Made by a program: the position numbers and the translations under genes. Shown here piece by piece: positions 5,214 through 32,509 of a stretch of DNA of 64,000 nt; positions within the stretch are counted from its first letter, which is position 1, and each line of letters opens with the position of its first letter. The notes under the pieces were generated by a model. That model did not search any database. It was not told where the DNA came from and worked only from the letters and a program-made list of their open reading frames with translations. The DNA comes from Pyropia yezoensis (lineage: Eukaryota > Rhodophyta > Bangiophyceae > Bangiales > Bangiaceae), in the NCBI GenBank assembly GCA_009829735.1, contig CM020620.1:27436951-27500950 (forward strand), in the 5' to 3' direction.

Positions 5214-5247
5214 CTGGCGTGGTCCCGCCATGGCGGGACCACGCCAG
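5214..5247. repeat. perfect 34-bp palindrome
   Basis: The two 17-nt arms, CTGGCGTGGTCCCGCCA and its exact reverse complement, abut with no spacer. The flanking bases do not extend the symmetry. It could form a cruciform or act as a dimeric protein site; function unknown. Confidence 0.8.
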
Positions 5248-7806: not shown

Positions 7807-7814
7807 CCTCCCTA
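7807..7814. repeat. hAT target-site duplication, left copy
   Basis: CCTCCCTA immediately precedes the left inverted repeat. The identical 8 bases follow the right inverted repeat at 32502-32509. Eight base pairs is the usual duplication length for hAT transposons. Confidence 0.9.
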
Positions 7815-7835
7815 TAGGCTTGGGTATCACGCGCC
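7815..7835 (+). repeat. hAT left terminal inverted repeat
   Basis: Begins TAGGCTTGGGTATCACGCG and matches the reverse complement of 32481-32501 over all 21 bases. TAGG/CAGG-type starts are common at hAT ends. Confidence 0.92.
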
Positions 7836-7945
7836 GCACGTGATGTAAGATCACGTATTTTGCGTGATCCCATGCGTGATTTAGCGCGTGATCACACGTC
7901 ACGCCCCGCCAGAAAGGGCGTGATTGGGGGCGTGATTAGGAGTTA
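7836..7945. repeat. hAT left subterminal motif cluster
   Basis: GCGTGAT occurs at about 7862, 7874, 7886, 7918 and 7930, with related CGTGAT/ATCACG sites between. Clustered short motifs inside the ends are the usual transposase-binding sites of hAT elements. A matching cluster lies inside the right end. Confidence 0.75.
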
Positions 7946-8030
7946 AGTATACCATACAAATACTACATCTCACGTGGAAACCGGCTATAATTGCACAGTG
8001 CCTCTGCCCTAATCCCAGTGGTCCTCCCGC

Positions 8031-8990
8031 ATGTCCGCCGTCAAGAAGCAGCGTCCAGCACACCGCGGACGACGCCGCGCGTCCGCTTCGGCGATGCGCA
8101 CCCCGACGCCGGCGCCCATGTCGCCGGCAGCCGCCGCGGCGCCGGCAGCGTCCGCCGTCGCGCCCGCCGGCATGGATGGCAGCGGCGGTGGTGGCGGCGG
8201 CGGTGGTGGCGGCGGCGGCGGTCGAAGCTGCGTCAGCGGCGGCGGCGGCGGCGGCGGTGACCGCGACCGCGGGGGCGGTGGCGGTGGCGGGCTGCCCGCG
8301 GGGCGCGCCAAGTCGCCCCCGGCGAGCAATGGCGCGGCGGGGGTGTGCCCCCCGCTGCTGGCGTCCTCTCCCCCTCCACCAGACCGACCCCCTCCCCCTA
8401 GAATCGCAACGGCGGTGGTGGCGGCAGCAGTGGCCGCAGCAGCGGTGGTGGTGGCGGCGGTGGCGGCAGCGGTCGTGGCGGCGGCGGCGGCAGTGGTGGT
8501 GGTGGCGGCGGCGGCGCTCACCGGCTGTCGCGGTCGGCGTCCCCCCCCCCTCCCCCGCCTTTCCACCTCCTACGCGCGGGCGCTCAACGACCGGCTTGCC
8601 CTCCCCCTCCTCCGCCGCTCCCTCGCCGCCCTCTTTGCCCCCCACGGGCGGGTGCTCTTCATCTTGGCGGGCCACGCGCGCCGCATGCGCGGGTAGGCGT
8701 GGGTGACCGTTGCGGGTAGGCATGGGTGGCCTTTGCGTCCGCGGCCGACGCGGCCGCCGCCGCCGCCGCCGTGCACGGCACCCTCTTTCTTGGCGTGCCT
8801 CTGGGCGTGGCGCCCGCGCACGCGTGGAGCGACGCGGCGGCCAGGGCGGACGGGAGCTACGTCAAGGGTGCCCGCCTGCGGGCGCCGCCGCCGCGGCCAC
8901 CGTTCCAGGGGTGGGGGGGGGCGGACGCGAAGCGCTCGCGCAGGGGGGACGCCCCGGGGGGGGGACGGGTGCACATGGACGTGGACGCTC
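8031..8990 (+). pseudogene. U1A/U2B''-type snRNP RRM gene, disrupted, inside the hAT element
   Basis: The first frame (8031-8693) has a Gly/Ala/Val-rich leader. From about residue 181 it reads YARALNDRLALPLLRRSLAA, then LFAPHGRVLFILAG and RRMRG. These align position by position with the first RRM of the U1A/U2B'' spliceosomal proteins. TAG (8694) falls where that family has the Gln of its RG-Q-AF motif. The rest of the RRM follows in another frame from 8720 (AWVAFASAADAAAAAAAVHG, ending SDAAARADGSYVKG like the family's C-terminal RRM helix). Between the halves a 23-nt unit is imperfectly duplicated (8689-8711 and 8712-8734, 20 of 23 matching), which accounts for the frame change. No second RRM is seen downstream. 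Two lesions, nonsense and duplication, point to a decayed copy. It lies 216 bp inside the left end of the transposon, same strand as the transposase, so it is likely captured host sequence. Confidence 0.72.
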
Positions 8991-11545
8991 CGGGGGGGGG
9001 GGGGGGGCGGCGTCGCTGGCCGCCGCGGCGGCCGCCGCCGCGTCACCCAGTGCGGCAGCCGGCGGTGGCGCACCTCTGGCGGCAGCGGCGGTGGCGGCGG
9101 CGAGCGGCTCCCGCCCCGCCCCCCGCCCAATGGGTGGGGACACTGCTCCTCCCGGCGGCGCGGGCTCTCCACCCCGCTCCGCCAGCGCCCCCCCCACCCC
9201 TGCCTCGGCCGCCGGCGGAGGGGTGGCTGGAGCCAAGGGCAGGGCTCGCCGGCGGCGCCAAAGCGAAGGGCCCCCCCGTGCGTGGTGGCGCTCCCACAGA
9301 AGCCCCACCTTTCAGTACAGTACCCCACCCCAAATCACCCGCCCCGGTCGGAAACCGTGGGGAAAGCCAAGGGCACTGGCAGCGCTGCACCTGTCCCCGC
9401 GTCCCTCTTTGTTCACTCCCCCACCGGCCGGAGCGGCGCCCTTCACAGCACGTGAGGGCGGAGGCGGGGCACGACGCCACCGACCTGCGTCCATGGGCGC
9501 AGGGGAACCCGCAAGCCACTCACAAGCAGCCTCCAGAACAGCGGCCACCGGCGTCCGGTGCCACCGCGCACGCTGCACCGTGGCCCCCCCCCCATGTCCC
9601 CCCTCCACCCGTCCGCCCCGTCCGCTATGCCACCCCCCCGCAGAACGGTCGGCTGCGACGGGTGCCGCCATCGCCGGCCAACGCGCACGGGCTGGGTGCC
9701 CGCCACCATGAGGGGCGGGGACACAGCTGTGCAGTCCGTGGCTGGCGACTGGGGGAGGTAACAGTGTCGGCGGGTGCCACCAAGGCTGTCGCTTGCATCC
9801 CGGGGGTGGACGAGTTGCCCCATTGAGAGCAATAGATAAGCGCAAACCCTGGGGGATTGCCGCAGGGTGATGCGGGGAAACGACTCAGAGCCTTCCTCGC
9901 CCTCGGACGTCCGTCCTCAGAAGGAAAGAACAGTTGCACACAGACCGTGCCGCCTGGGACACGAACTCCTTTCTCTAGCGCACGTGCTCCAGCTGCGGCG
10001 GTGAGCCAGACGCGGGGGCGGCGCTGCGTTGGTTGGCTGGCGAGGCGTTCCCCCGCTCCCCGACCCCGCCTGAGCACCACTACCTGCTCCCCCTCCGCGC
10101 CTGGTACAGCCAGCGGACGCCCGCGCACCTGCCGGCCCACAAGACGATGTCTCCACAATGGATGTCGAAACTGAGGGCAGAAATCCCGGGTGGCGCCACT
10201 CTGTCGCCCCTTTGTCTCGAACTATGAGTAGAACAACACGCCTCGCTATGCGCATCAATCTTCGCGGAGCTATGTGGTTGTGCTTCCCAGGTCCACTCTA
10301 CTCTACTACCGACAGGTGGCCAGCATGCACACCGCCAGTGTGTCCAGAGTTCCCAACTCTGGCCACACGCGACGCCACATTGGAAGACTGCATGAGTGAG
10401 ACGGCGGCTACCCCGACGAGGCGTCACGGCCATCTCGGGCCCCCACACCTGACGGGGTAGGTGGTTCATGGCTCAGGGCGTCTGTATCAGCGGTCTGCCA
10501 CTGGAGGCGCCGTAGCCGCCAACGGAAGGGCTCGGTCGGTCCCAGGGCACGGGCCGTGCTCAATGAACGACCTCATATGATTGGATTGTGTGCGCACCAG
10601 TGCATGTATCTGATAATCTATTGGCCTATAACCCCTCTTACACTGCTGTAAGAGACTGTGAATATAAATTCACGAAAAATAAATGGTGCGAATGGGAATT
10701 GAACTCATATCGGTTCGAACCTGCAACCGTTCATAGCAACGGCCAGGCGCCCTCGTCAGGAGTCGGGCGCGGGCCAGCGTCTATTCCGCGAGTGCAGGTG
10801 CTCGCCAACCCTGCCATGGCCGCACCTGCTGTTTACCAGTGCTGCGAAGTGAGACTATTTATTCAAAAAAATTTTGTCCACCAGAAGTCGTGGTGATACA
10901 TAACACAGAGATCAGCCCACCCCAGCCGCACATCACACGACCTTGCCAGAGGACGGTCGGCACACAGTGTAGGCGCTGAGCCACGGCTCGACTGTGCTGT
11001 ACACCGGGACACGTTACATCAAGCAGAACTGCGTGCTCAACGCAACCATGCTGTCTGGTGTTCCCGCGGAAAGAAAAAAAGCGGGACTCCTTCGCGCGAC
11101 TGCCAAGGACGCGTCACTCTCGGTGGCCGACCGAAGCAACGACACAGCGGGACATACGTGGATGAGAGTGGCCTACGACCCCTGTGACGAGCTGGCCCCA
11201 AAGAATATGCATCCGGCACCAGGTGCCGCCACCAGTGCAATGCAATCCTGTCTGCAAGAGAGTTGCAGCTGGCCCTGCGGATCATCCCGCAAGCGCGCGC
11301 CATGAGTGAGAGACCCTATCCCCCTTTCCCGCTTCGGGTCTGCCAGCCGGGGGCGCGCATGCGCCCGTCACCTCGTGCCTCCACACGACGCTAGGCCCCG
11401 CCGCGCCTAGGCGACCGTGTGCACGGACCACGTGCTGACGGTGGCTTTATGAGCGTGGCTGGACCACATCCCAGGTGACTCCCCCCACACGCGCGCACGA
11501 CCAGGACGCACGTCCACACCCACCTGTTCCCCCGCCCTCTCCCAC
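8991..11545. other. hAT internal region without a clear gene
   Basis: Up to about 9850 the DNA continues GC-rich, with G/C runs and low-complexity frames that may be the tail of the RRM gene. From about 9850 to 11545 composition is nearer average. The short frames there show no conserved domain. A tRNA-like but non-folding patch at 10684-10760 was considered and rejected. Confidence 0.45.
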
Positions 11546-11550
11546 TGCCC
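11546..11550. repeat. retrotransposon target-site duplication, left copy
   Basis: TGCCC directly before the leftmost LTR, repeated directly after the rightmost LTR at 29185-29189. Five base pairs is usual for Ty3/gypsy integrases. Confidence 0.8.
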
Positions 11551-12089
11551 TGTAGCAGTACTCCCAAGCACCAACCCCGAGTCAGGGAAGGAAGAGGAGT
11601 ATTGCCGATATCCCAACTTGGGACACCGGAAGCAAGCACCTCCACACAGCCGAACACGGAACTTGCGTGTGGTGAGCGGGTCCACTCACCAAGGCACGAA
11701 CAAGATGTGTCGGAGCCAGACGGTGTTTTCTTGCTTGGCCAGCCAAGGTGGGCCCTCCCCGCCTTGCTGTCCCTCCTTATCAACCCTCCTCACACGCTCA
11801 CGCAACCCCTCAAAACACTCAGAAAATGAACCCTCAAACAAACCAATCATATCACTCCACATGCAAAGAACTCAAAGCGTAGAAATCCGTCTGGCTCCCG
11901 TGCAAAAATCCCAAGAAACAAATACCAGCAGCATTACCCTGCTCTAGTATGTCGGAAGTCCTAGTCGAATTTCCGTCCAGAAGTCAGAAGTTTCACCATC
12001 GTGGGTCGGGTGAATTTCGACTTCCGGTCAGGTCCACTTGACCCGAATCTTCAAAGTATTGGTACCGAATTCCGGCCCAATCTCCCACA
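11551..12089 (-). repeat. 3' LTR (left outer LTR)
   Basis: 539 bp. Read on the minus strand it begins TGTGGGAGATT and ends GTACTGCTACA, the standard TG...CA borders. It looks identical to 28646-29184. Confidence 0.93.
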
Positions 12090-12101
12090 TTTCCCCCTTC
12101 T
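12090..12101 (-). promoter_or_regulatory. polypurine tract
   Basis: AGAAGGGGGAAA on the minus strand, directly upstream of the 3' LTR. It would prime plus-strand DNA synthesis. The same tract occurs at 19491-19502 in the second copy. Confidence 0.8.
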
Positions 12102-12699
12102 CAAAAGTCCAGCCGTCCCGGTGGACGTCCAATCAGCGGCGAGTCGCAGTGACCGGGAGAGGAGGATGCAATTCCCGAGTTGAGATGCAAAGTACGGTGC
12201 ATCGCTGGCGTCTAGCGTGCACCAGGGTTACGCCGGGGTTGCACTCGCGTCCGGCGGGGCCCTCCGGGAGAGGCAGTCCCTCTCCGTGGGGTGCGCTCTC
12301 TGCCCTGACACTGGGTAGAGGAGCCCCCTCCACGCGAAACAGGTGTGGGGGAAAGTCGTCCCCCACCTGGTCAGGGTGCTCCACGGGTGGACTCACGTGT
12401 GGGTGAGCCCCCCTAATCTGGGTGTCGGCGTACCTCCGCCACACCCCCTGCCCCTCAACTGGAGGAGTAGGGCGTCGACGTTCTCACTCGGAACGTCGAC
12501 CTGCACCTGCCCCTTCAGTTGGGGTACGGTTGCTCTCGGGGGGTCGGGTTGTGTCCCCCCCTTCAGCTCGATCCACACCCAGCTGGCTCTCTGCGGGGTG
12601 TTCCTCACTCCTTCCCCCCTTTCTAGTCAGGGTTGAGGGGTGTGCGCACCCCGAGTTGGGGGTGTTGCACTCGGTCGCCGGCGGTGGGACTCGGCCGCC

Positions 12700-13093
12700 G
12701 GTGCGGGGTCTTCTCTCCCCTTCGTGTGTGCGGGCGGGTGTGTGCCTTCCCGCCGCTGCTCCCTCGCGTCGGCGGGTCTGTCTCTTCCCGCCGTGCGGTT
12801 GGTGTCGTTGGTTGGGGTGGTGTCTTCCCCCTTCCGCCCCTGTGTCGGGCGTCTTCGTTGTCGGTGGGGGCGTGGGTTGTGTTCCCCCCCCTTTGTCCTC
12901 GTTGGCGGGGTTGTGTCTTCCCCGCGCTGCCCCTTGTGTCGGGCTTCTTCGTTGTCGGTGGGGGGTGTGGGTCGTGTCCCCCCCCCTTGCTCTACCTCAC
13001 CGAGTCGGTCAAGGTTGGTTGTCGTCGGAGGGGGCGCGGGTCGTGTCCCCCCCCGTGCTCAACCTCACCGAGTCGGTCAAGGTTGGTCGCGTG
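12700..13093 (+). repeat. degenerate tandem repeats upstream of the antisense ORF
   Basis: The motif TCACCGAGTCGGTCAAGGTT occurs twice, spaced about 70 bp (near 12997 and 13066). TCTTCGTTGTCGGTGGGGG also occurs twice, about 100 bp apart (near 12850 and 12950). GTGTCTTCCC-type pieces recur before that. The block ends at the ATG of the antisense frame, so it may be its leader or promoter region. Confidence 0.6.
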
Positions 13094-15010
13094 ATGGCGG
13101 GTGAGCCGAGTCGGCCTTTGTCCCCGTCTCCGACGTCTCTGTCGGACAAGCGACGGACGGGAGAGGAGGCCCTCGGGACTGAGGAGTCTCTCAGCCGGGG
13201 GTCGGCCATGGAGACGACTCGTCCCGGGCGAGGGTCGGAGGCGGCCGCCTCAGCCGTCCCCGCCCCATCACCTCCTACTGCCCCCTCGCCCGTGGTCCCA
13301 CCGGGGGATGGGTCTTCCAACCCGGTGGCGGAAGGGGATGTGACTCCCATCCCCCGCCTTCCTGAGTCACGGCTGCTACTCCCGCCGCGGCCCCGTCCTC
13401 CTATGGGGCCCCGAGCCTGGGCGCCTCCCAAGTCAGTCGGGGAGCTTCCCGACTGCAAGCTCAAGGATGTCTACTTGATCATCCCCGAGCCACGGCGGAC
13501 CGACGTATGGTACCGCCGGACTCGTCGGTACCCCAACCAGGTGACTCTACCTGATGGGGTGGTCTGCGACCTACCAGCGCTACTCTGCCTGGCGGACGCG
13601 CCTGAAGTCCAGGCGTTGTCAACCTCCCTCGCCTTGGGGTCGGGCGACAAGGAGATCGACGACACCCACGCGGTTGTGTCTACCGAGTGGTGTGCCCTTC
13701 CCCGTCCCTACCTGGGCGGAGAGGACGCCCACGCCCAACACGGCGTGGTGCGAGAGGAGTTCCGACTCCGGGGCTCCTCGGGCTTCCTCATCCACGGGTC
13801 GCGGGTGGAGTTCACCCACGTACCTCTGGAGGAGCGTGAGCACCAGTACCCTTTTCTCCCAGGGTGGTGGGAGACAGTGGAGGTACCTTGTGGGTTTCCG
13901 GCTCGGATCCCCCTCCTCGTTGCCTACTTTGGCTCCGTGCTACGCTCCAGCTCGGAGGGTAACCGGGTCTTCGCCTACCTCGCCACGCACTGGGTGGTCG
14001 TGGTGACTCGGGGCTGGTACTCCGATGTAGTCCATCGGGGTTACCTGTGGCACCTCCCACCGGCTCTGGTGGAGGGTATGGAAACCCTTGGCTTCCACTG
14101 GTTAGCCTTGGGCGCGGGGGACCTGGCTCCGTTCCTCCTTAAGGGTATGGTCACCCTGCACAATCGACTCGATTGGGCGCAGCTGGAACCCTTCCTCCGC
14201 CGCAACAAGCGTCCAGAGCCGGGGTTGGAGAGTGAGCCACCCCGAAAGTTCGTCCATGTCACCCATACTCTGGTGCAGGGACAGCTGTTCTTGCGTGAGG
14301 GGTTGGGGGACTCTTCCCTTCCCTACGCAGAGGGGGTTACTCCCTCTACGTCGCCCCCTGGCTCTGGGTGGGCGACATCATCGGCGACGACTCGTCGTGG
14401 TGCTCATCGAGGAGCCCCTCGAAGCCGCGGGCGAGCTGTGCCGACGACTTCCCCGCGGGTCGCGACTCCGACCTCGGGGGGTGTGGAGCCGACTCAGGCT
14501 CCACCCTTCCAGTTCCTCGAGCCCTTCCCCGACGTGGCGTTGGGTTCGCTACGGGTCCGAACTCCGGTACCCATGCCGATTGCGCGTGGCGTTGGCGAGA
14601 TGCTTCCCAACTTGGGAGCCATCATGTATGACGCCACGGTGGAGGCCTCACTCGTGGCCTCCCTTGACACGTTGGCTTGGGTCACCCGGCGTGTCAGTCA
14701 CTTCCTCGCGTCGGGCGACTCAGCCACGGCGCGACAGTCATTGGCAGCTGAGGTCACTCGCCTCGCGGTTGGACACGAGTTTGTCCAACGGCTGCTGTCG
14801 ACTCAGCAGCAGCTTCCGCGTCACGGAGGGAGTACCTCCGGACATCTATCTTACGACGGGGATGGGTCCGCGAGTCGGCGGGCCCCTCCCAGTGCTTCCA
14901 CTCCGGGGCCCTCCCGAGTGGGTTACGCCCCTCCGCTACCGGCCTACGACCCTGGGGGTTCGTGGTCGGGCGGTCCCTATAGTGGTGGGGGTGGCCATAT
15001 GGAACGCTAG
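13094..15010 (+). CDS. antisense ORF of the chromovirus (copy 1), unknown function
   Basis: A 638-residue frame from ATG 13094, open upstream without ATG to 12422 (862 codons in all). It runs opposite to gag-pol, between the end of pol and the 3' LTR, and overlaps the last 257 nt of the pol frame tail-to-tail. The N-terminal 120 residues are Ser/Pro-rich. A globular-looking middle follows (about 120-420 of the ATG form: DVYLIIPEPRRTDVWYRRTR, PFLPGWWETVEVPCGFPARI, FAYLATHWVVVVTRGW), then a low-complexity C-terminus. No family recognised, no signal peptide or clear membrane segment. Long antisense ORFs in this place are known from Tat-lineage Ty3/gypsy elements of plants, but this element has a chromodomain. 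The second copy (20490-22410) is broken by indels, probably reading errors. That such a long frame stays open supports, but does not prove, a real protein. Confidence 0.55.
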   Translation: MAGEPSRPLSPSPTSLSDKRRTGEEALGTEESLSRGSAMETTRPGRGSEAAASAVPAPSPPTAPSPVVPPGDGSSNPVAEGDVTPIPRLPESRLLLPPRPRPPMGPRAWAPPKSVGELPDCKLKDVYLIIPEPRRTDVWYRRTRRYPNQVTLPDGVVCDLPALLCLADAPEVQALSTSLALGSGDKEIDDTHAVVSTEWCALPRPYLGGEDAHAQHGVVREEFRLRGSSGFLIHGSRVEFTHVPLEEREHQYPFLPGWWETVEVPCGFPARIPLLVAYFGSVLRSSSEGNRVFAYLATHWVVVVTRGWYSDVVHRGYLWHLPPALVEGMETLGFHWLALGAGDLAPFLLKGMVTLHNRLDWAQLEPFLRRNKRPEPGLESEPPRKFVHVTHTLVQGQLFLREGLGDSSLPYAEGVTPSTSPPGSGWATSSATTRRGAHRGAPRSRGRAVPTTSPRVATPTSGGVEPTQAPPFQFLEPFPDVALGSLRVRTPVPMPIARGVGEMLPNLGAIMYDATVEASLVASLDTLAWVTRRVSHFLASGDSATARQSLAAEVTRLAVGHEFVQRLLSTQQQLPRHGGSTSGHLSYDGDGSASRRAPPSASTPGPSRVGYAPPLPAYDPGGSWSGGPYSGGGGHMER

Positions 15011-17150
15011 AGTCAGCGGTCGAACGACTTGTTCTTTCCTTGGTGAGAAGAGTGGTGGGTATTCTTCTCGTTTTGTATTGTGCCATAGTCGGCTTTGTTA
15101 GTAGAGAATCTTTGAAGAACCATGGTATGTGTTTGTACTCATGGTTGGCTTGCCGCTCTGCTCTGACTTGGAGCAGGGACTTCATCCCCGACGTACGAGT
15201 GCTACGTCGGCGTATAGATATGCCCACAGTCTGGCAGTATCTACGGACCTTCTCTACTGGTAGGTCCTCTACAAACTCCCATGTGTCGGAAGTTGGTCCA
15301 TACCCGAACCACCTGACTCGGAGCATGAGTCGCCCCGACTCATCATATCCGTGCCCGACAAACTTGTCGAACACCGCCTCCAATGGCTTATTGGAAGAGG
15401 TCGGCAAGGATGGGACTTTCCATGCTTGCAAAGCCCTTTCCCAAGCGGGATCTCCCTCTGGGGGTTCGGGTGCGCGAGTCGCGTGATTCCCATTTATTGT
15501 CCGGATACCATCATCACTCTCGATGGTTAACCGACGTCCATCCGTTTTAAGGATGTGATATGGTCCCAGAGTCTTGAAGACCAATTTCCCTCCCTTATTG
15601 TCGTGGGAGTTAACATAAATCCAATCTCCAACTCGGAGCGGATCGCGACGATGTCTGACTCGGACATCGAAGTACCTCTTGTAACGGGCTTGGGCCTTCT
15701 CCATAGTAGCCCGGACAAGGGGTATCATCTCCTCCAGTCTCTGGAGTAGGGAGGCTTTCGCCTGACTCGGTGTTTGAGTCGAAGTCTCACCCTCAGTCTG
15801 GGTGAGACGCTCCACAGCTACTGACGGAAGTCGTCGGGGGCAGACGAAGGCAAACGGTGCCTCTCCCGTACTACTGTGTACCTGGGAGTTGTATGCTGTC
15901 ACGAGTAGTGACGCATAACGAGCCCATGTGACTACATGGTCATGGACATAGTGACGCAACTGGCGCACTAGAGTCCTGTTGAATCGTTCCACCTGCCCAT
16001 TAGTCTGGGGATGGTAAGGGGTGGCGAAGTTCGTCTGCACCCCTAACATCTTCATGACTCCCTGATACAGGACGGACGCAAACTGTGGTCCGTTATCCGA
16101 AAGGATAGAGTCGGGGATGCCATAACTGGCAACCCAGACGTCGAGTAACTCACTCAGAACGTCCACGGCTGTGATATCCTTGAGTGGGGATACCCGTGTG
16201 AGCTTAGTGAAGCGATCACACATCACCAGAAGGTACTCATATCCTTCAGGTGTTCGTGGTAGTGGACCGAGTAAGTCCACTGCTATCGCTGCAAACGGCT
16301 CTGTTGCAGGAAAGAGTCTCATGGAAGAAGTCTGCCGGGACTCCATGAGTCTATTCTTTGCGCAAGTCGCGCATGCGGCTACATATCCGTACACATCAGC
16401 CACGAGTGATGGCCAATAGTACTTCTTACGTAGGGTCTGATACATCCTCGTAGACCCTGGGTGTCCACCCAACGGTGAGGAGTGCTCCCGTTGGAGGATA
16501 CTCTTGCGTAACTCCTTGGGGACGACGACTTGCTTGTCCCCCTGGGTATATCCCTTACGGCAGAGTATGCCGTTGTCATTCAGGAAGAACCGAGTCGGTT
16601 GAGCCTGGTCGAGCTCCTTCCTGAGTCGTCGACAAAGTTTGTCGCTCTCCTGTGCCTGGACAAACTCATCCAAAGACACGGGTAATAATTTGGCCATGCC
16701 AGGCATCCTCGGGTCGAGGACAGTTCCGGAGCGAGTGGTCACTGCCACATGAGGGAGTTCCTCAGGGATAGGGGAAGTGTCTTTCCCATCCGTCGGTATG
16801 CGAGACAACGCGTCCGCAACCGCATGCTTCGGGCCTGGCCGATATTCAACATCATAATCGAACTCAGCGAGGCAGAGTCGCCATCGATTGAGTCGGTTAT
16901 TCGTACAGGCTGTAGTGGTGAGTATCCACTTCAAAGCCTTGTGGTCACATCGAATGAGGAACTTCCTTCCTTCGATGTATGGCCGTAGCATGGAGACTGC
17001 CCATACCACGCCAAGACCCTCTACCTCCGTCACAGAATAGTTCTTCTGGGCGGGTGAGAGTCCCTTACTGAAATAGCCAACGGGTAAATACTCCCCCGAA
17101 GGCTGTTGTTGGAGTAAGCAACAACCGAGTTGGTCGTAACTTGCGTCCAC
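14754..17150 (-). CDS. pol: chromovirus pol, C-terminal part (copy 1): RNase H, integrase, chromodomain
   Basis: A 798-codon open frame; its first codon is GTG inside the polyprotein, not a true start. RNase H begins at once (DASYDQLGCCLLQ, then RCDHKALKWIL and AVADALSR). Integrase follows with the zinc-binding H-H-C-C region (GHPGSTRMYQTL, CATCAKNRL) and the catalytic core (VDLLGPLPRT, SDNGPQFASV, PYHPQTNGQVERFNRT), giving the D-D-E triad. A GPY-type segment comes next (VGDWIYVN, TLGPYHILK). Near residues 600-670 a chromodomain reads LRVRWFGYGPTSDTWEFVE. The enzyme copies the element's RNA and inserts the DNA; the chromodomain is expected to guide insertion to marked chromatin. The frame ends in a low-complexity tail overlapping the antisense ORF. 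Upstream it connects through indels to the RT fragments at 17223-18396. Confidence 0.9.
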   Translation of the reverse strand: MDASYDQLGCCLLQQQPSGEYLPVGYFSKGLSPAQKNYSVTEVEGLGVVWAVSMLRPYIEGRKFLIRCDHKALKWILTTTACTNNRLNRWRLCLAEFDYDVEYRPGPKHAVADALSRIPTDGKDTSPIPEELPHVAVTTRSGTVLDPRMPGMAKLLPVSLDEFVQAQESDKLCRRLRKELDQAQPTRFFLNDNGILCRKGYTQGDKQVVVPKELRKSILQREHSSPLGGHPGSTRMYQTLRKKYYWPSLVADVYGYVAACATCAKNRLMESRQTSSMRLFPATEPFAAIAVDLLGPLPRTPEGYEYLLVMCDRFTKLTRVSPLKDITAVDVLSELLDVWVASYGIPDSILSDNGPQFASVLYQGVMKMLGVQTNFATPYHPQTNGQVERFNRTLVRQLRHYVHDHVVTWARYASLLVTAYNSQVHSSTGEAPFAFVCPRRLPSVAVERLTQTEGETSTQTPSQAKASLLQRLEEMIPLVRATMEKAQARYKRYFDVRVRHRRDPLRVGDWIYVNSHDNKGGKLVFKTLGPYHILKTDGRRLTIESDDGIRTINGNHATRAPEPPEGDPAWERALQAWKVPSLPTSSNKPLEAVFDKFVGHGYDESGRLMLRVRWFGYGPTSDTWEFVEDLPVEKVRRYCQTVGISIRRRSTRTSGMKSLLQVRAERQANHEYKHIPWFFKDSLLTKPTMAQYKTRRIPTTLLTKERTSRSTADSSVPYGHPHHYRDRPTTNPQGRRPVAEGRNPLGRAPEWKHWEGPADSRTHPRRKIDVRRYSLRDAEAAAESTAAVGQTRVQPRGE

Positions 17151-17222
17151 ATCAACGATGTAGTGAGCCCCCGGTCTCGGATCGCTAACACCGGTGGGTT
17201 GCAGAGGAGCTCTCGCAACCTA

Positions 17223-18631: not shown

Positions 18632-19131
18632 NNNNNNNNNNNNNNNNNNNNNNNNNNNNNNNNNNNNNNNNNNNNNNNNNNNNNNNNNNNNNNNNNNNNN
18701 NNNNNNNNNNNNNNNNNNNNNNNNNNNNNNNNNNNNNNNNNNNNNNNNNNNNNNNNNNNNNNNNNNNNNNNNNNNNNNNNNNNNNNNNNNNNNNNNNNNN
18801 NNNNNNNNNNNNNNNNNNNNNNNNNNNNNNNNNNNNNNNNNNNNNNNNNNNNNNNNNNNNNNNNNNNNNNNNNNNNNNNNNNNNNNNNNNNNNNNNNNNN
18901 NNNNNNNNNNNNNNNNNNNNNNNNNNNNNNNNNNNNNNNNNNNNNNNNNNNNNNNNNNNNNNNNNNNNNNNNNNNNNNNNNNNNNNNNNNNNNNNNNNNN
19001 NNNNNNNNNNNNNNNNNNNNNNNNNNNNNNNNNNNNNNNNNNNNNNNNNNNNNNNNNNNNNNNNNNNNNNNNNNNNNNNNNNNNNNNNNNNNNNNNNNNN
19101 NNNNNNNNNNNNNNNNNNNNNNNNNNNNNNN
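18632..19131. other. assembly gap, 500 N
   Basis: Exactly 500 N, the conventional placeholder for unknown size. The left flank is chromovirus pol; the right flank starts inside an LTR. Confidence 0.99.
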
Positions 19132-24619: not shown

Positions 24620-26526
24620 CCTATCAAACGCTTCTTGCTCCGGGGTTTGGGAGCATCCAAGCGCTTGGGCATCTTGGAACTTACCAAGTGGTTCAACGGT
24701 GCAGACACTTTGGCATAGTTCGCCACAAAGCGTCTGTATACGTTACACATACCCAGGAAGCTCCTGAGTTGTGTCTGCGTCTGGGGGAACTTCGCCCGAC
24801 GGATGGCCATGAGGTTCTTCTCATTGACCAGAATGCGACCTGGCCGGACTATATGGCCGAGGTACTCCACCTCATTACTAAAGAGGTGACACTTCGTAGG
24901 TTTGAGTGTTACTCCTGCTTCACCCAACAGGGTAAACACTCTGTCCAAGTGGGACAAGTGTTCTTCGGCAGTCCCGGAGAACACAATGATATCGTCCAGA
25001 TACACCAGGGCGATCTGCCACTTGACTCCGGCAAGTATCAAGTCGATAGCACGCTGGAAAGTCGCAGGTGCATTGCAAAGCCCAAAAGGGAGCCGTGTAC
25101 ACTGATAAACTCCACAGTGACACGTGAAGGTGGTCAAGTGTCTGTCCTCCTTGCGGATGGGTATCTGCCAGTACCCCGCGTTGCAGTCCAACGTGGAAAA
25201 GTACTGTGCCTCACCGAGTGAGTCAAGGCAATCGTCCATACGGGGTAAGGGGTAACTATCCCTTACCGTCCGCTCGTTTAGCTTACGATAATCGATGCAG
25301 AACCGCATCGTGCCGTCTGACTTGGGCACCAAGACTATGGGACTGGCCCACTCACTTGAGCAAGGCTCAATGACACCCATGTCTTGCATCCGTTGGACCT
25401 GCTCTCGGGTGAGTTCCCGTGAGTCTGGTCCCATACGGTAGGGACTCAGGCGAACTGGCCTAGCCCCTGGCTTCAACACGATTCTGTGTTCGGTGGCCTT
25501 GATGAGCCCAAGGTCACCATTCCACAACTTGTGATGCTTCTGGATTAACTCATCCAGTCGTCCATGTAAACACTCCGGGATGTTCTCCCGATGTACCGTC
25601 GGCGACTTAGCCGTCGATGAACTCGATTGGTCGGCAGAGCCTGCCATTCCAATATCCTCCCATTGCTGTTGAGTCACAGCAACGACATTCCCCTCAAAGG
25701 TAGAGATCGACGCAATCTTCATGCCTCCGGGAAGTCGTCGAGGTTCCTCCGACGTGTTGAGGACCTCCACCCACCAGGTTTGGTCATCCCCACAAGTCAT
25801 GGGGCCCCAAGCAACTTGCACTTGGTGAGTATAATAGACTCGGTCCACGGGGGAAACAAGTCCATTCCCTCGAAACCGTGTGCGTACTCGCACAAAGGTC
25901 CTTGATCGGGGCGGGACTACCGTACCCTTACATACTCGTACATGGGTCGTAGAGCCTCCACCCTTGGGAGAGTTTTCCCTAGGTTGATGAGTCGTAGGGG
26001 AAACAGTCCTCCCTTTACGCAATATGGGGACAGTCTCTCCATTACGCATTCGGATTATCCCTTCCGGTCCACAGACGGCCGGGACATGGAGGTCCAGATA
26101 GTCAGTTCCCAGGAGTACGGGGACTGACATATTGGAGACTACTCCAAAGTTCACCTGCGTCTGGTAGAACCCAATGCAAACAGTCAATGCAATAGACCCA
26201 ACAATGGGGAGGAGTCCCCCATTGACATCAAACATACGCCACTCGGGTGAGCCGGCGGGGCTCACATCTGTCCCCTCTGGCAATAAGTCTTGCCTAATGA
26301 GAGAGGCAGCAGAGCCTGTGTCGACTATGACACGAGAGGTAAACTCATATCCATCCTGCAGCCAGAGTCGAGCTGCGACCTGGTAGTTACTCCCTACCAG
26401 CACTGACACAATCCGACTCGGGTCGTGCTTCTGAGGAGGGGCCTTGTCCCTAGGTCTCACCCCTCGAGGTCGAGTCAGGACCTTCACTCTCCCATGGGTC
26501 GGTGAGCGTGAAGCAACCCGCTTCAT
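24586..26526 (-). CDS. pol: chromovirus pol, N-terminal part (copy 2): protease and reverse transcriptase
   Basis: ATG 26526 opens a 646-residue frame starting about 40 nt after the gag stop and in a different frame, so pol needs reinitiation, frameshifting or another device. The aspartic protease has VIVDTGSAAS at residues 67-76 (catalytic Asp 69). Reverse transcriptase follows with ASPIVLVPKSDGTMRFCIDY, FSTLDCNAGYWQIPI, LPFGLCNAPATFQ and the catalytic YLDD box, then YLGHIV and FLGMCNVYRRF of the connection. The frame ends at a probable 1-nt reading error near 24600-24640. The continuation (RNase H onwards) lies in the next frame here and is intact in copy 1. Confidence 0.92.
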   Translation of the reverse strand: MKRVASRSPTHGRVKVLTRPRGVRPRDKAPPQKHDPSRIVSVLVGSNYQVAARLWLQDGYEFTSRVIVDTGSAASLIRQDLLPEGTDVSPAGSPEWRMFDVNGGLLPIVGSIALTVCIGFYQTQVNFGVVSNMSVPVLLGTDYLDLHVPAVCGPEGIIRMRNGETVPILRKGRTVSPTTHQPRENSPKGGGSTTHVRVCKGTVVPPRSRTFVRVRTRFRGNGLVSPVDRVYYTHQVQVAWGPMTCGDDQTWWVEVLNTSEEPRRLPGGMKIASISTFEGNVVAVTQQQWEDIGMAGSADQSSSSTAKSPTVHRENIPECLHGRLDELIQKHHKLWNGDLGLIKATEHRIVLKPGARPVRLSPYRMGPDSRELTREQVQRMQDMGVIEPCSSEWASPIVLVPKSDGTMRFCIDYRKLNERTVRDSYPLPRMDDCLDSLGEAQYFSTLDCNAGYWQIPIRKEDRHLTTFTCHCGVYQCTRLPFGLCNAPATFQRAIDLILAGVKWQIALVYLDDIIVFSGTAEEHLSHLDRVFTLLGEAGVTLKPTKCHLFSNEVEYLGHIVRPGRILVNEKNLMAIRRAKFPQTQTQLRSFLGMCNVYRRFVANYAKVSAPLNHLVSSKMPKRLDAPKPRSKKRLIGCESSSATHRC

Positions 26527-26564
26527 TACCGCTGGAGCCTTTGGGTCAGTCTTAGTCCCAGCGG

Positions 26565-28328
26565 CTAGGCGTTTCCCTCATCCGACTCGGATGATGGAGT
26601 ATCCTTGCCACTTGAGCTGGGGGAAGAGGTTTCCCCCTTCTCAAGCGTGGACTCATCCTCTGACTTAGGTTGAGTCATGGCCGTCACACGTGTGGTGTGT
26701 GGCCGGGTATCCGAATCAGTCCTCGGAATACCGAGCTTCCCAATACGAGCCAACAGGGCTCTCAAACGAACGTCCAGAGTGGGGCATTGGGCTGCCCAGT
26801 GTCCCGACTTGGAACACTGCCAACACGGCCGATCACTCATCGACGCCGATGGCCCCGCTTTTCCCTGTGACTTATCAGGGATGGCGGCCACCATACCTTC
26901 CGTCTCTCGAGTTGAGGACGAAGGTACTGCAGGGTACGTCCGCGTGTAGGAAGGCATCCTTGCAGTTCTGCGGAAGCGACTTGCTTCCATTCCCTTAACT
27001 TCTTTCTCTCGTTCCTTCCGCTGCTCAGACACGAGCCAGCGGTACTCATCACCCTTAGTCTGGGCGATGCGTGCCAACTCCGCCAGAGTCATGGTCGGAG
27101 TATTACGCTCTCGCACAGTCGCTCGAGCTGCTCGGTGGACACCCTCCACAAAGCGTCCCTTAATGACTCCTTGGGGATATAGGAATCCACAGAGGACGTT
27201 CAGCTGACGGAGTCGTTCAGCGAACTCCCGTTCCTCTTCACCCTTACTCTGGGTGGCGCGGTTGAACTCTTCAACCTGCACAGCCAAGGAAGCCTCGTCT
27301 GCGTGAAGACGAAGGATCCAATTAACCAACTCCAGGTAGGAGGTCACCTCACCCGGATTCCCACCATGCCGACTTGGCATGACGTTCATCACCTCGGAGC
27401 GGAGTGGCTCCTTGGTGAAGTCCTGAAGCATGAAAAACGCTTCAGCTTCAGAGACATCATTGTCATCGCAGGCTTTTGCGAACTTCCGCAAAAACTGGAA
27501 GACCTTCAGGGGTGGAGTCCCGTCCCATTCTGAACGGACCCCGAAGGATTGCGCAACGTGTTTCTTGCGCCGGCCCAGGGTACGGGCCTGGCTATTTGAG
27601 TAGGTCAACGACTTGTTGACCAACCCATATGTCTCACAGTCGAAGACATCCTTGAACAATGGATTATTCACCACGATCTTTCCTGGGACGACTCTAGTCC
27701 CAAGACGGTCCGTGTGAGTCACACGACCATGTCGAGTAAGATCTTCTTCACCCGACTTGCCACTTGCAGAGGACTCAGACTCCGAGTCCACCTCACGACG
27801 GAGAGTACGTCGAATCTCCCGTCGCTTCTGACGCCTCGAGGCCTGCTCAGGCGGAGGGGTGCTCCCCTTCAACGCCTTCCCCACCTCCTCTCGCACGACT
27901 TGTGCGATGGCAGTCATCACCGAGTTATCCACGATACCGGATGATCCAGGTGGAGCTTGACTCGAGCTCCCACCCGGTCCTTCCGGCACCAGTCGTGGCG
28001 CGGACCCACCAACCCGGGGTACAGAACTCCCTGTCCCGTCACCTCTGCCGGTCGGCGGTCCCATGCCGAAGTGAGTGTCGTCACTCCCCGAAGAGGTTGC
28101 CGGAGCCTGACGCTGGCTCGGCGCTCCCACCGGAGAAGGGCGAACTCCGCCCGTCTCTTCCTGTGACGGCCTGGGAAGGAACCTGGCCGATCGCCGTCGG
28201 GGTCCAACCTCTGGACCCACCACATCCGCACTGCCCGGCCTGGGTGGTACTCCGCCCGTCGGGGGAGGACTACGCTCCCCCTCCCCAGGTACACTCGGCG
28301 CAATGGGGGGGTCTCCCTCACCAGCCAT
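26565..28328 (-). CDS. gag: chromovirus gag (capsid and nucleocapsid)
   Basis: 587 residues from ATG 28328; the frame is open 5 codons further without ATG. The N-terminal 170 residues are Pro/Ser/Gly-rich. The middle (about 230-460) is a helical retrotransposon Gag/capsid region (FLRKFAKACDDNDVSEAEAF, EREFAERLRQL). A CCHC zinc knuckle sits near residue 520 (CWQCSKSGHWAAQC, spacing C-2-C-4-H-4-C), as expected for RNA binding. The C-terminus is acidic and Ser-rich. It forms the particle in which the element's RNA is reverse transcribed. Only one copy exists in the window, because the matching part of copy 1 would fall in the N gap. Confidence 0.92.
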   Translation of the reverse strand: MAGEGDPPIAPSVPGEGERSPPPTGGVPPRPGSADVVGPEVGPRRRSARFLPRPSQEETGGVRPSPVGAPSQRQAPATSSGSDDTHFGMGPPTGRGDGTGSSVPRVGGSAPRLVPEGPGGSSSQAPPGSSGIVDNSVMTAIAQVVREEVGKALKGSTPPPEQASRRQKRREIRRTLRREVDSESESSASGKSGEEDLTRHGRVTHTDRLGTRVVPGKIVVNNPLFKDVFDCETYGLVNKSLTYSNSQARTLGRRKKHVAQSFGVRSEWDGTPPLKVFQFLRKFAKACDDNDVSEAEAFFMLQDFTKEPLRSEVMNVMPSRHGGNPGEVTSYLELVNWILRLHADEASLAVQVEEFNRATQSKGEEEREFAERLRQLNVLCGFLYPQGVIKGRFVEGVHRAARATVRERNTPTMTLAELARIAQTKGDEYRWLVSEQRKEREKEVKGMEASRFRRTARMPSYTRTYPAVPSSSTRETEGMVAAIPDKSQGKAGPSASMSDRPCWQCSKSGHWAAQCPTLDVRLRALLARIGKLGIPRTDSDTRPHTTRVTAMTQPKSEDESTLEKGETSSPSSSGKDTPSSESDEGNA

Positions 28329-28625
28329 CTCCACAAGAGTCACGTGGAGTCAACCAAAACGACCAAACGGTGTCCAGAGTCGGGGATCGTCAGCTAGGGA
28401 GTTCCTAGAGCACGTTCCACCCCTCCACCTGCCTCAAGGAAGGCGGTGAGGTTTCCCGAAACTCCGGGTCTCCCACCAAGACTCACGGTGGCCAACCTCG
28501 TCGCCCAGCGAACGCTCGGAACGTAGGCGAGTCGATCGTGTCACCGGAAGTCTCGGTGCCGAAGGGGGAGAGGGGCCAACTTGGTCCCGTCTCCGGTCAA
28601 GGGAGGTACCAAAGTCGATATCCTC

Positions 28626-28643
28626 TCCCCCGCTGATCCACCA
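28626..28643 (-). promoter_or_regulatory. primer-binding site
   Basis: On the minus strand, TGGTGGATCAGCGGGGGA starts two bases after the 5' LTR. TGG plus following bases would pair with the 3' end of a tRNA ending in ...TCCACCA. It is not the common initiator-Met form; which tRNA is used cannot be told here. Confidence 0.7.
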
Positions 28644-28645
28644 AC

Positions 28646-29184
28646 TGTAGCAGTACTCCCAAGCACCAACCCCGAGTCAGGGAAGGAAGAGGAGTATTGC
28701 CGATATCCCAACTTGGGACACCGGAAGCAAGCACCTCCACACAGCCGAACACGGAACTTGCGTGTGGTGAGCGGGTCCACTCACCAAGGCACGAACAAGA
28801 TGTGTCGGAGCCAGACGGTGTTTTCTTGCTTGGCCAGCCAAGGTGGGCCCTCCCCGCCTTGCTGTCCCTCCTTATCAACCCTCCTCACACGCTCACGCAA
28901 CCCCTCAAAACACTCAGAAAATGAACCCTCAAACAAACCAATCATATCACTCCACATGCAAAGAACTCAAAGCGTAGAAATCCGTCTGGCTCCCGTGCAA
29001 AAATCCCAAGAAACAAATACCAGCAGCATTACCCTGCTCTAGTATGTCGGAAGTCCTAGTCGAATTTCCGTCCAGAAGTCAGAAGTTTCACCATCGTGGG
29101 TCGGGTGAATTTCGACTTCCGGTCAGGTCCACTTGACCCGAATCTTCAAAGTATTGGTACCGAATTCCGGCCCAATCTCCCACA
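28646..29184 (-). repeat. 5' LTR (right outer LTR)
   Basis: 539 bp, identical by eye to 11551-12089, with TG...CA borders. The target duplication TGCCC follows at 29185-29189. It ends about 105 bp before the hAT transposase start, so its promoter or enhancer could influence that gene. Confidence 0.93.
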
Positions 29185-29289
29185 TGCCCCCCCCACCTAC
29201 TCCCACACCCACCTATTCCCCCGCCCCCTCTCACTCCCCCTGCCCCCCACACCCACTCCCACACTCACCCCACACCCCCGCCTCCGTCG

Positions 29290-32200
29290 ATGCTAAACGA
29301 CGAGAACGCCGCCGTGGCGGCGGCATTGGCTGCGGCTCGTGTGGTGACACGCGCGACGGACGAGGACGATTACTACACTTTCGACGGCGGTGCAGACGAC
29401 ACGACAAGGACGGCGGCGGCGATGGCGGCAAGGATGGCGTTGGCGGCAAGGTTGGGCGCGGCACCCACGGCGGCGGCGGCAAGGGCGAGGGAGCCATCCA
29501 CGGCGGCGGCGGCAAGGGCGAGGGAACCATCCACGGCGGCGGCGGCAAGGGCGGGGGAGACAGCTCCGGCGTCAACGGCAGGGGCGGGGGCGCCAACCAC
29601 GGCGGCAACGGCAGGCGAGACGGCGGCTGGTGTGGCAGGCGAGTCGGACCGACCGCAAGCGCCTAACGCGACAGCTGCGGACGGTGTGGCGGGTGCGGCG
29701 GGAGCGGTGGGTGCCGCGGTTGCGGCGGGCGCGCCGGCTGCGGCCGGCGGCGACGAGGCACCAAGGCCCAACTCCCAGTCTACGGACGCCACGACAGCCG
29801 CCAACCCAGCCTCTGGGAGCAAGCGCACAAGGGACAAGGTGCGAAAGGTGTGGGGGTACTTTGAGCAAGGCACCAAGGACTACAGTCCCACATCTAGGAC
29901 TAAGGAGGTGTTTTGCCTCTTCTGCGTGCGCGCCAAGAAGAGCAGGACACCCATCAACGGCAGGGCTGACGTGATGGCCACGCACCTGGCTACCAAGTGC
30001 AACTTTGCGACGCGTCGAGCAAGACTGGACGCGGCCGAGGACGACTCTTCTTCCCCGTCTCGCAAGCAACGTAAGCTCAACGCATCGGCATCAAGCGGCA
30101 GCGGGACAAGCACCGGCGGTCCCATGGATTCCCATCTGACGCGAGCGTGGACCCCCAGCATGACCAGGGAGTTCCAGGACGACCTTCTGGCCGCCCTCCT
30201 CTTCTCATCCATCCCGTTCAATGTGCTGGACGCTCCTGCCTGGCGCCACCTTTTTTCCAAGTGGATGCGCGGACTCAAGGCGCTTCCCGACCGCAAGACC
30301 ATGCGTGGCCCCGTCCTGCGTCGTCTGCTGCAGGCGGTTATCGACGCCTTTATGAAGATCTACTTCAAGGGAGCCTACGTTACCATCTCCTTTGACGGGT
30401 GGAAGAGTCGGGCCGCCCGCAAGCTGCTGGGGCTGGTGTGCACCAACGTGGGCATGACTGACGGGGTGGTGTCATCGGACTTCCGCGGGACGGTCGACAT
30501 CACTGGCGTCCCGGAGACGGCGGAGCTGGTGAAAGGCGCTGTGGAGGAGGAGGTGCAAAAGGCTGGGGCGGCGGGCGAGTTTGCCCTCCCGCAGCCCACC
30601 GGAGAGCGTCTGGCCACGTGCCCGTCGATGGTGGTGGGTCTGGTCAGTGACTCGGCGAGCTCGAATGTCCTGGCCAAGAAGATGCTCGCCTCTGCCAACG
30701 AGTCCCTGATCATCGTCGCCTGCTTCCCGCACCAGCTGAACCTCATGACGGGCGGCATCCTGAACCACGAGTCGTTGGCCCCCATCGTCGCTAAGATGGT
30801 CATGGTCGTCGGCTGGTTCAGGAACTCTACTAAGTTCATGGGCCTGCTTGAGGCCCTGATGGTGAAGCGCCTGGCGTTCGTGACCAAGGGGGAGACACGC
30901 TGGTACTCTCATTACGGCATGGCGCACCGGCTGCTGGAGCTGAAGCCGGCGCTCGACCTGTTCTCCACGAAGTACTGCGACGATGCGGCGCTGCTGGCTA
31001 CCATGAATGGCGGCGCGGTCATTGACGAGCTGCGTAGCCGCCGCTTTTGGTCCATGGTGCGTGTCCTGTGCAAGATGCTGCTGCCGATCGTCAAGGAGAT
31101 TGGGATGGCCGAGCGCCGCAACGCCAACCTGGCGGACGTGGCCTCCTCATTTGGCCGCCTGCACGCCTACTTCCTCAAGCTTCGTTCGGAAACGGCAACG
31201 CTGGCGGCTGATGGGTCTGGCACCTTGGCCCCCCCGTTTGTGCTCGCTGCCGACCCTTCCGTACGCGCCATCATCCACCAGCTCAGCGGCGCGACCCTCA
31301 AGATCTTGCAGTGGCGCTTCACGCGATACTACAACGTCAGTGAGCTGGTGCTCGCGCACGTGCTGGACCCTGAGCGGGCTCTGACAGGCCTGTGTACGCA
31401 GCACGGGTGCTTTGCGGCTGTGGACAACGTGGTCGAGCACTTTGTGCGCTTGGCCGCGCGCTTCGGGACGCTGCAGGGTGAGCAGTCGGCGGCGGTCACG
31501 CGGAGGGCCATTGCGGCCTTGGTGAAGTATCTCGCTGACGGGCCCGACTCCCTCTTGTTGTTCAACCCCAACGGCACTACTGCCCGTATTCCCGCGGTGG
31601 TGATGTGGGCCATGTGCTCCGAGTTCAACGGAACGGCGCTCCAGCAGGTGGCGCAGCGGCTCCTGTCGGTGTGCTGCCACGCGGCGGAGATGGAGCGCGT
31701 ATGGTCGGGGATGGGCCTTGCCAACACGCCGGCGCGCTCCCGGCTCGACGTGGCCCGCCTGACAAGCATGACTCGTGTGATGCTGCACCTGCGCGCGGAG
31801 CACGCCAAGGACAAGAGTGCAAGGGAGGCGTTTACGCCCGGCTGTCTGATGGAGGACGAGGAGGACATCGCCGTCGCTGACACGGACGGCGTACGTTCCA
31901 GCCATGCTCGTTCTCAGGCGCCCCCGGACGGCTCCACGCCTGAGGTGGCTCGCGTGAATGACTTTGACGAGCTGCGGGAGACGGGCCGGTCCCTGCGGGA
32001 AGAGCTGGACGAGGAGTTAGCTCTGTGCAGTCGGACGGGTCATCCTACGCCCGACGAGCTCGACGCCCAAGACGTTGACGGCGGTGGCGCGGAGCGGGAG
32101 TTCTCGGACGAGGTTGCAATGGCAAGGTACAGCGAGCTGCTGCGTCGCTGCGGCTCACAGGGGTCGACCGGTGGACCCGCAGTGCCGTCGCCCAGCGGCA

Positions 32201-32337
32201 GAGGCGTGCCAGGGGCGGCAAATGGCGTTGGAGACGCGCGGACGGCGGCGCCAGTTGTGCTGCTGTGCAAGGTCTTCGACTCCTCGTGGTACCTGCGAGA
32301 CGCGATCAGCAAGTATGGAGTGGAGCTCGAGGCGTGA
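29290..32337 (+). CDS. hAT-family transposase with BED-type zinc finger
   Basis: 1015 residues from ATG 29290, one uninterrupted frame. Residues 30-190 are an Ala/Gly/Thr-rich linker with AREPSTAAA repeats. A BED-like finger lies at about 195-240 (VWGYFEQG, FCLFC, then H and C in MATHLATKC). The RNase-H-fold core follows: FDGW at 368-371 (first Asp 369), GLVSDSASSN (second Asp 454), CFPHQLNL (C478, H481; the hAT CxxH motif), then TRWYS. The last catalytic Glu is likely in AEMERVWS near 800, which also marks the C-terminal dimerisation region. The 200-residue acidic tail is variable. The enzyme would cut the element at its inverted repeats and join it elsewhere, leaving 8-bp duplications. All key residues are present and the flanking ends match, so it may be active. 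The retrotransposon now separates it from the element's left end. Confidence 0.92.
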   Translation: MLNDENAAVAAALAAARVVTRATDEDDYYTFDGGADDTTRTAAAMAARMALAARLGAAPTAAAARAREPSTAAAARAREPSTAAAARAGETAPASTAGAGAPTTAATAGETAAGVAGESDRPQAPNATAADGVAGAAGAVGAAVAAGAPAAAGGDEAPRPNSQSTDATTAANPASGSKRTRDKVRKVWGYFEQGTKDYSPTSRTKEVFCLFCVRAKKSRTPINGRADVMATHLATKCNFATRRARLDAAEDDSSSPSRKQRKLNASASSGSGTSTGGPMDSHLTRAWTPSMTREFQDDLLAALLFSSIPFNVLDAPAWRHLFSKWMRGLKALPDRKTMRGPVLRRLLQAVIDAFMKIYFKGAYVTISFDGWKSRAARKLLGLVCTNVGMTDGVVSSDFRGTVDITGVPETAELVKGAVEEEVQKAGAAGEFALPQPTGERLATCPSMVVGLVSDSASSNVLAKKMLASANESLIIVACFPHQLNLMTGGILNHESLAPIVAKMVMVVGWFRNSTKFMGLLEALMVKRLAFVTKGETRWYSHYGMAHRLLELKPALDLFSTKYCDDAALLATMNGGAVIDELRSRRFWSMVRVLCKMLLPIVKEIGMAERRNANLADVASSFGRLHAYFLKLRSETATLAADGSGTLAPPFVLAADPSVRAIIHQLSGATLKILQWRFTRYYNVSELVLAHVLDPERALTGLCTQHGCFAAVDNVVEHFVRLAARFGTLQGEQSAAVTRRAIAALVKYLADGPDSLLLFNPNGTTARIPAVVMWAMCSEFNGTALQQVAQRLLSVCCHAAEMERVWSGMGLANTPARSRLDVARLTSMTRVMLHLRAEHAKDKSAREAFTPGCLMEDEEDIAVADTDGVRSSHARSQAPPDGSTPEVARVNDFDELRETGRSLREELDEELALCSRTGHPTPDELDAQDVDGGGAEREFSDEVAMARYSELLRRCGSQGSTGGPAVPSPSGRGVPGAANGVGDARTAAPVVLLCKVFDSSWYLRDAISKYGVELEA

Positions 32338-32480
32338 TCCAATGTATAACAGTGGGTGTTTCAATGCATTGAAATTGAAATATAGGTGTGCTACTTTGTG
32401 CGTGACACGCTCTCAAAAGGGCGTGACTACGCCGTGATCGGGCGTGATCGGGCGTGATCGCACGTCACGCGCGGGTTTTG
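32338..32480. repeat. hAT right subterminal region with GCGTGA motifs
   Basis: AT-richer after the stop, then GCGTGAC and GCGTGAT repeats (two adjacent GATCGGGCGT units near 32437-32460). The arrangement mirrors the left end. Confidence 0.75.
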
Positions 32481-32501
32481 GGCGCGTGATACCCAAGCCT
32501 A
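32481..32501 (-). repeat. hAT right terminal inverted repeat
   Basis: Exact reverse complement of 7815-7835, ending CCCAAGCCTA. Followed at once by CCTCCCTA (32502-32509), the second copy of the target duplication. Confidence 0.92.
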
Positions 32502-32509
32502 CCTCCCTA

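Follow-up and report, generated by a model that had tools for sequence, protein, structure and literature searches.

Pyropia yezoensis is an edible red seaweed. We analysed a 64,000-base stretch of its genome assembly (C3:27436951-27500950; hereafter the window), in which a hAT-type element spans positions 7815-32501 and holds a captured gene fragment, a retrotransposon with an assembly gap inside it, and a transposase gene (Table 1). The three large contigs of this assembly measure 43,592,136, 34,331,705 and 29,385,039 bases; the genome report describes three scaffolds of 43.6, 34.3 and 29.4 Mbp with 48% repeats, based on PacBio RSII reads from homozygous thalli, with scaffolding by mate pairs, optical maps and Hi-C (PMC7423979). 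Elsewhere in the window, a trypsin-domain ORF was detected on the minus strand at 58151-59584 (Pfam E 9.3e-20), and a 1696-aa ORF on the plus strand at 37294-42384 matched only SAPS, weakly and under the threshold. No hits were obtained with Rfam or ARAGORN in the parts of the window that were scanned.

Table 1. Components of the nested element, with window positions
Feature	Position	Strand	Remark
Left 8-bp target-site duplication	7807..7814	.	CCTCCCTA
Left TIR	7815..7835	+	21 bp
Left subterminal region	7839..7936	.	Repeated CGTGAT motifs
Captured 5′ part of U1A (SNRPA) gene	8089..9149	+	Without second RRM; 72% identical to the intact host copy (DNA)
Lesions in the U1A remnant	8694..8739	+	TAG at 8694-8696; imperfect 23-bp tandem duplication (8694-8716, 8717-8739), frame-shifting
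Retrotransposon target duplication, left	11546..11550	.	TGCCC
Ty3/gypsy-type retrotransposon as assembled	11551..29184	-	Three LTR copies and N gap
LTR 1	11551..12089	-	539 bp; 3′ LTR
ORF with RNase H and integrase	14754..17150	-	Weak chromodomain match
Assembly gap	18632..19131	.	500 N
Partial LTR 2	19132..19490	-	Truncated by the gap; probable artefact of contig overlap
ORF with reverse transcriptase	24586..26526	-
ORF with CCHC zinc knuckle	26565..28343	-	Gag-like
LTR 3	28646..29184	-	539 bp; 5′ LTR, identical to LTR 1
Retrotransposon target duplication, right	29185..29189	.	TGCCC
hAT-type transposase	29290..32337	+	Single open frame, 1015 aa
Right subterminal region	32433..32480	.	Repeated CGTGATC motifs
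Right TIR	32481..32501	-	21 bp
Right 8-bp target-site duplication	32502..32509	.	CCTCCCTA

The terminal inverted repeats (TIRs) of the outer element matched at 21 of 21 bases, and the same 8-bp sequence, for which the chance of agreement was calculated as approximately 1 in 65,000, adjoined both of them. After a complexity filter, eight exact 21-base inverted word pairs were found in the window; seven belonged to one palindrome at approximately 5214-5247, and the remaining pair was the TIRs. The repeated CGTGAT motifs lie within approximately 120 bp of the left end; on the right, they lie within approximately 70 bp of the end. Similarity between the window flanks and those of other copies ended at the TIR ends, and the right flank of the window was unique in the genome. 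An initial annotation of this DNA had read the exact inverted repeats and the eight matching bases outside them as one hAT insertion; both were seen, and they support that reading. It had also proposed two genome checks, one for other copies with the same repeats and one for an empty site holding a single CCTCCCTA. The former succeeded, since the 21-mer was found at at least 108 places with up to three mismatches (backwards control, 0). The latter did not: searches of the assembly for an empty site gave none.

The hAT ends of the window are thus those of a multicopy family. Sixteen places with such ends were retrieved, among which seven long-form copies were read from end to end (7104, 7098, 7104, 7048, 7104, 7102 and 6508 bp), the length of the family being about 7.05-7.1 kb. 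These copies differed from the left arm of the window at six to nine positions, and the arms were 99.6-99.9% identical among copies. The flanking 8-mers at 12 other two-ended loci were identical in eight cases, offset by one base in one (L033) and unequal in three (L030, L034 and L046). The 6508-bp copy (L035; C2:13549392-13555898) carries an internal left-arm deletion of approximately 594 bp, corresponding to window 10581-11174, with an intact transposase frame.

The fragment near the left end, annotated initially as the remnant of an RRM gene, was present and was identified by sequence comparison as the 5′ part of a U1A gene, of which an intact host copy lies elsewhere, at C1:14.91 Mb. The host copy forms one open frame of 468 aa from its ATG, and its product matched human U1A across both RRMs (3pgw_A, E 3.1e-28), as well as U2B″. 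In a protein database search, the host U1A gave no match over the whole protein, and its RRM1 region gave one distant relative. In the element, RRM1 was readable as far as the TAG at 8694, which is followed by the frame-shifting duplication and is untouched by any of the variable sites of the left arm. A genome search with window 8009-11300 gave at least 43 matches (40 of 1,346 candidates scored). When the host gene and the near-identical copies are set aside, the U1A region is present in diverged form (67-85% identity) at no fewer than 25 loci, eight of which were read. Family ends were present on both sides in five of the eight (L037, L043 with L052, L046, L047 and L048), and on one side, within the piece retrieved, in the other three. 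The U1A part was joined to the C-terminal part of the transposase in L037 and L043, and these two appear to derive by internal deletion from an element in which U1A and transposase were already present. Because the captured piece is common to diverged elements of the same kind, its capture predates the window copy and is old and subfamily-wide, and the piece has decayed.

The distribution of changes among codon positions was then compared. Between host and window, RRM1 showed 20, 10 and 28 changes at codon positions 1, 2 and 3, respectively (96 of each; p = 0.005). In comparisons of the host gene with the elements, which are not independent of one another, values below 0.05 were obtained in 4 of 9 cases over all of RRM1 and in 9 of 9 over the N-terminal part. 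Between the window and eight other elements, the codon-position effect was absent (p 0.10-0.96 for RRM1; 0.18-0.96 for the N-terminal part), with the exception of the first half of RRM1 in L050 (p = 0.031), in which the excess was at position 1. This pattern would be expected if the host gene were constrained and the captured piece were not. The fragment was also considered as a working gene; this was rejected in view of the TAG, at which no variable left-arm site lies, the frame-shifting duplication and the lack of a third-position excess between elements.

The full-length transposase of the initial annotation was recovered as the 1015-aa ORF. Its frame was intact in 9 of the 11 arms examined, including that of the window, and the two arms with a broken frame (L042 and L044) adjoin N gaps; the transposase is presumably active. 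Its Pfam matches were below the cut-offs: DUF659, which we take to be hAT-related, scored 29.4 bits (cut-off 34.7, E 7.4e-07), and the hAT C-terminal dimerisation region, PF05699, scored 17.3 bits on the C-terminal piece (E 0.0042) and 14.3 bits on the whole protein (cut-off 21.4). In a genome-wide search with PF05699 (73 matches), the transposase locus of the window was missing. Sequence comparison of the transposase with solved structures gave no match, and a protein database search found no relative beyond an identical protein. The identical 1015-aa protein is represented in the public database by one 3,516-base contig with eight member sequences. A fold predicted from the single sequence (mean pLDDT 37.9, pTM 0.24) was too poor for a fold search and was set aside. 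Assignment to hAT is the best one for this divergent protein, and is based on the domain matches below cut-off together with the 8-bp duplications.

The inner element is inserted 104 bp upstream of the transposase start codon. LTR 1 and LTR 3 were identical across 539 bp, the LTRs begin with TG and end with CA, and a polypurine tract precedes the 3′ LTR. The features of Ty3/gypsy elements were present, namely, the order of reverse transcriptase, RNase H and integrase, LTRs of the same sense and a 5-bp duplication, and a chromodomain match (PF00385) after the integrase scored 17.5 bits (cut-off 25.1, E 0.0039). Plain copies of the hAT element have an empty retrotransposon site with one TGCCC. 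The LTR family is abundant, with 250 LTR starts at up to two mismatches. Of the initial description of a complete chromovirus with its own TGCCC duplication, the duplication and the nested position at 11551-29184 stood, but completeness is not secure, as there are three LTRs and the middle one is cut by the N gap.

The sequences before and after this gap overlap for 6,916 columns with 3 substitutions and 34 single-base gaps. Compared with a related copy on C1 (see below), noise was seen towards the end of the first piece, the start of which was clean, and the second piece showed the opposite. In addition, the copy at C1:0.18 Mb has two LTR starts 9,695 bases apart, corresponding to a retrotransposon of 10,234 bp. 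These results suggest that one retrotransposon of approximately 10.2 kb was assembled twice in the window, the third LTR and approximately 7.4 kb probably being contig overlap. The length of 24.7 kb given initially is, for this reason, not secure. With a single retrotransposon copy, the element would measure 17,287 bp (7,048 + 5 + 10,234), and the window element minus the retrotransposon and one TGCCC is 7,048 bp, the length of copy L032. A real three-LTR structure, produced as a tandem retrotransposon by unequal recombination in an element of more than 24 kb, would agree with the assembly as given; we regard it as unlikely, considering how little the overlapping pieces differ, the reciprocal arrangement of their clean and noisy sides, and the spacing of the LTR starts at C1:0.18 Mb.

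We next analysed whether the nested arrangement was confined to the window. The left-arm sequence at the insertion site, CCCGCCCTCTCCCACTGCCC, occurs exactly 12 times in the genome. The retrotransposon was absent from nine of these assembled sites, and an LTR was joined at the same base in three. The left flanks at C1:33.88 Mb, C1:33.90 Mb and C2:3.59 Mb agreed, with 0 substitutions and two to six indels in 1.5 kb; since some sites are one locus assembled twice, the nine plain sites stand for approximately seven loci. The three left junctions between hAT and LTR were at C1:176,740, C1:18,912,436 and the window, and exactly three right junctions were detected when up to two mismatches were allowed (C1:166,493, C1:17,982,780 and the window). 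The composite of hAT element and retrotransposon is therefore found on C1 as well, in assembled pieces at 0.16-0.18, 17.98 and 18.91 Mb. The left flanks of the C1 copies at 0.18 and 18.91 Mb, and of a truncated left end at 0.93 Mb, were the same DNA and carried the 8-bp duplication CAGCGGCT; they were 97.8-98.7% identical, with 4-8 substitutions and 12-26 gap positions per 1.5 kb. CAGCGGCT also adjoined the right end at 17.98 Mb. We read the C1 composites as one locus assembled in pieces, although a true local duplication is possible. The window locus on C3 carries CCTCCCTA, and its flanks are unlike those of the C1 locus with CAGCGGCT. Judged from the assembled sequence, the same nested junctions are present at two loci with different outer duplications and different flanks.

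The two composites were nearly identical. The window and the copy at C1:18.91 Mb had 0 mismatches in 7,701 columns, and the window and the copy at C1:17.98 Mb had 1 mismatch in 7,117 columns, which was in the retrotransposon and not in the arm; between the window and the C1 composites, no substitution was found in either hAT arm. The composites also shared variants that set them apart from the plain copies, differing from 9 of 9 plain copies at sites 8011, 8012 and 9719, and from all eight that were covered at sites 10835 and 10840. Among the composites, this covered all four assembled left ends at 8011 and 8012, and both of two at 9719, 10835 and 10840. These private hAT variants, in conjunction with the same junctions and another 8-bp duplication at the second locus, indicate that at least one of the two hAT jumps took place when the element already contained the retrotransposon, and the composite of approximately 17.3 kb probably moved as a unit.

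Based on these observations, we propose the following history. A hAT-type element of approximately 7.05 kb, which possessed a transposase gene and carried an old and dead U1A fragment near its left end, would have been entered by one Ty3/gypsy retrotransposon of approximately 10.2 kb at the site 104 bp before the transposase start codon. This composite of approximately 17.3 kb would then have been moved whole by hAT transposition, presumably by the hAT transposase, so as to occupy two places with an 8-bp duplication of its own at each. The element ends with their duplications, the junctions and variants common to both composites, and the captured gene with its host copy are observed, and we consider the whole history, from insertion into the hAT element to movement as a unit, to be likely.

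The same variants bear on other ways of placing one composite at two loci. The abundance of the LTR family would favour separate insertion events, in which this retrotransposon entered two hAT copies independently at one identical position, but the shared base and orientation, the private hAT variants common to both composites and the empty state of 9 of the 12 left-arm sites make this extremely improbable. Ectopic gene conversion, by which the retrotransposon was copied into a hAT copy already present at the second locus, is compatible with the right arm, and the near-identity of the arms between copies would make recombination possible. However, since variants found only in the composites occur as close as 197 bp to the left TIR, conversion would have had to take in almost all of the left arm too, and we consider such an event very unlikely. 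The right arm contains no composite-only variant; at each of its two informative sites (29198 and 29215), one plain copy has the same base as the composites, and a switch within this arm would therefore be invisible.

A third alternative concerns the assembly itself, in which the composite would exist at C1 alone and a plain hAT element at C3 would have been misjoined, to the left and to the right of the N gap, to contigs from the composite. At least one chimeric join is probable within this hAT family, since the left flank of L034 (C2:3590904-3598005) is that of C1:33.88 Mb (0 substitutions and 6 indels in 1.5 kb) and its right flanking 8-mer is that of the neighbouring L042. The flanking 8-mers of L030, moreover, are unequal. 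Furthermore, the N gap lies inside the retrotransposon of the window, where the noise, consisting of indels only, is typical of contig ends. Such a chimera requires, however, wrong joins at both C3 flanks, and the left switch must lie within 196 bp of the TIR, given the composite-only variants from 8011-8012 onwards. The escape from this constraint, a plain C3 copy of the composite haplotype, was unseen among the nine plain copies, and a chimeric origin of the window composite is accordingly improbable in our estimation. Movement of the composite as a unit also bears on the order of events. The initial annotation had proposed gene acquisition, then hAT insertion at this locus, then retrotransposon insertion. 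The nesting and the greater age of the gene acquisition agree with our results, but the order of the last two steps is not supported, in view of the second composite locus with CAGCGGCT; that order is possible for the window locus.

The components of the composite resemble known systems. The outer element shares with the hAT superfamily its 8-bp target duplications, short TIRs, single transposase gene, DUF659 match and weak match to the dimerisation region, and differs in that the domain matches of its transposase are below the Pfam cut-offs and that the sole relative from the protein search is identical. As in Pack-TYPE or Pack-TIR elements, including Pack-hAT, a fragment of a host coding gene is enclosed by hAT TIRs and has increased in copy number along with the element; Pack-TYPE elements are non-autonomous by definition (PMC8903248, PMC8277862). 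The window element differs in also having a full-length transposase frame beside the captured fragment, which would place it outside that definition. The inner element has the TG...CA LTRs, 5-bp duplication, polypurine tract, CCHC motif, reverse transcriptase, RNase H, integrase and weak C-terminal chromodomain of the Ty3/gypsy chromoviruses; nothing was clearly different, the chromodomain match being under the Pfam cut-off. Elements lying within one another, each with its own duplication, are exemplified by three nested elements in a cadherin allele (PMC6522560), whereas the nested unit of the window is present at two loci with unlike outer duplications, pointing to movement after nesting.

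The nesting of elements, the capture of genes by hAT elements and the chromovirus are each of a known kind, the more interesting fact being the second composite locus. Nested transposons are usually read as fixed layers, while here inner and outer element seem to have moved together. At the level of titles and abstracts, we found no case of a nested retrotransposon carried along with a hAT element, which does not prove that none has been published. If confirmed by reads, the composite would be a clean and very recent case for measuring the size up to which a hAT element remains mobile, and would warn against inferring the order of events from nesting alone. The family also provides a red-algal set of hAT elements: transposase frames are intact, near-identical copies are numerous, and the captured splicing gene is ancient. 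More speculatively, and with a small chance of being correct, the composite could be a working 17-kb mobile unit in which the retrotransposon gains a second, cut-and-paste route and its LTR alters transposase expression in favour of the movement of its own copy.

Several minor observations were made on the family. In the left arm, window 10173-10524 matched C3:947815-948131 at 82%, apart from the other family copies, and is possibly a second captured or inserted piece. At L031, the outermost 20 bases on the left occur as a tandem duplication (positions 357-397), with the 8-bp duplication CTCCAGGT outside the outer copy. A TIR variant, TAGGCTTGGGTATCACGCCCC, in which CCCC replaces CGCC, was present in many ends among the matches listed, and ends of this type may represent a separate subfamily. 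Finally, a second nested hAT relative of approximately 25.2 kb, L043 with L052 (C2:31005103-31030256), contains a U1A fragment and a member of the same LTR family at a different insertion position, and its flanking 8-mers, TCTCCCGG and TCTCCCCG, agree at seven of eight bases.
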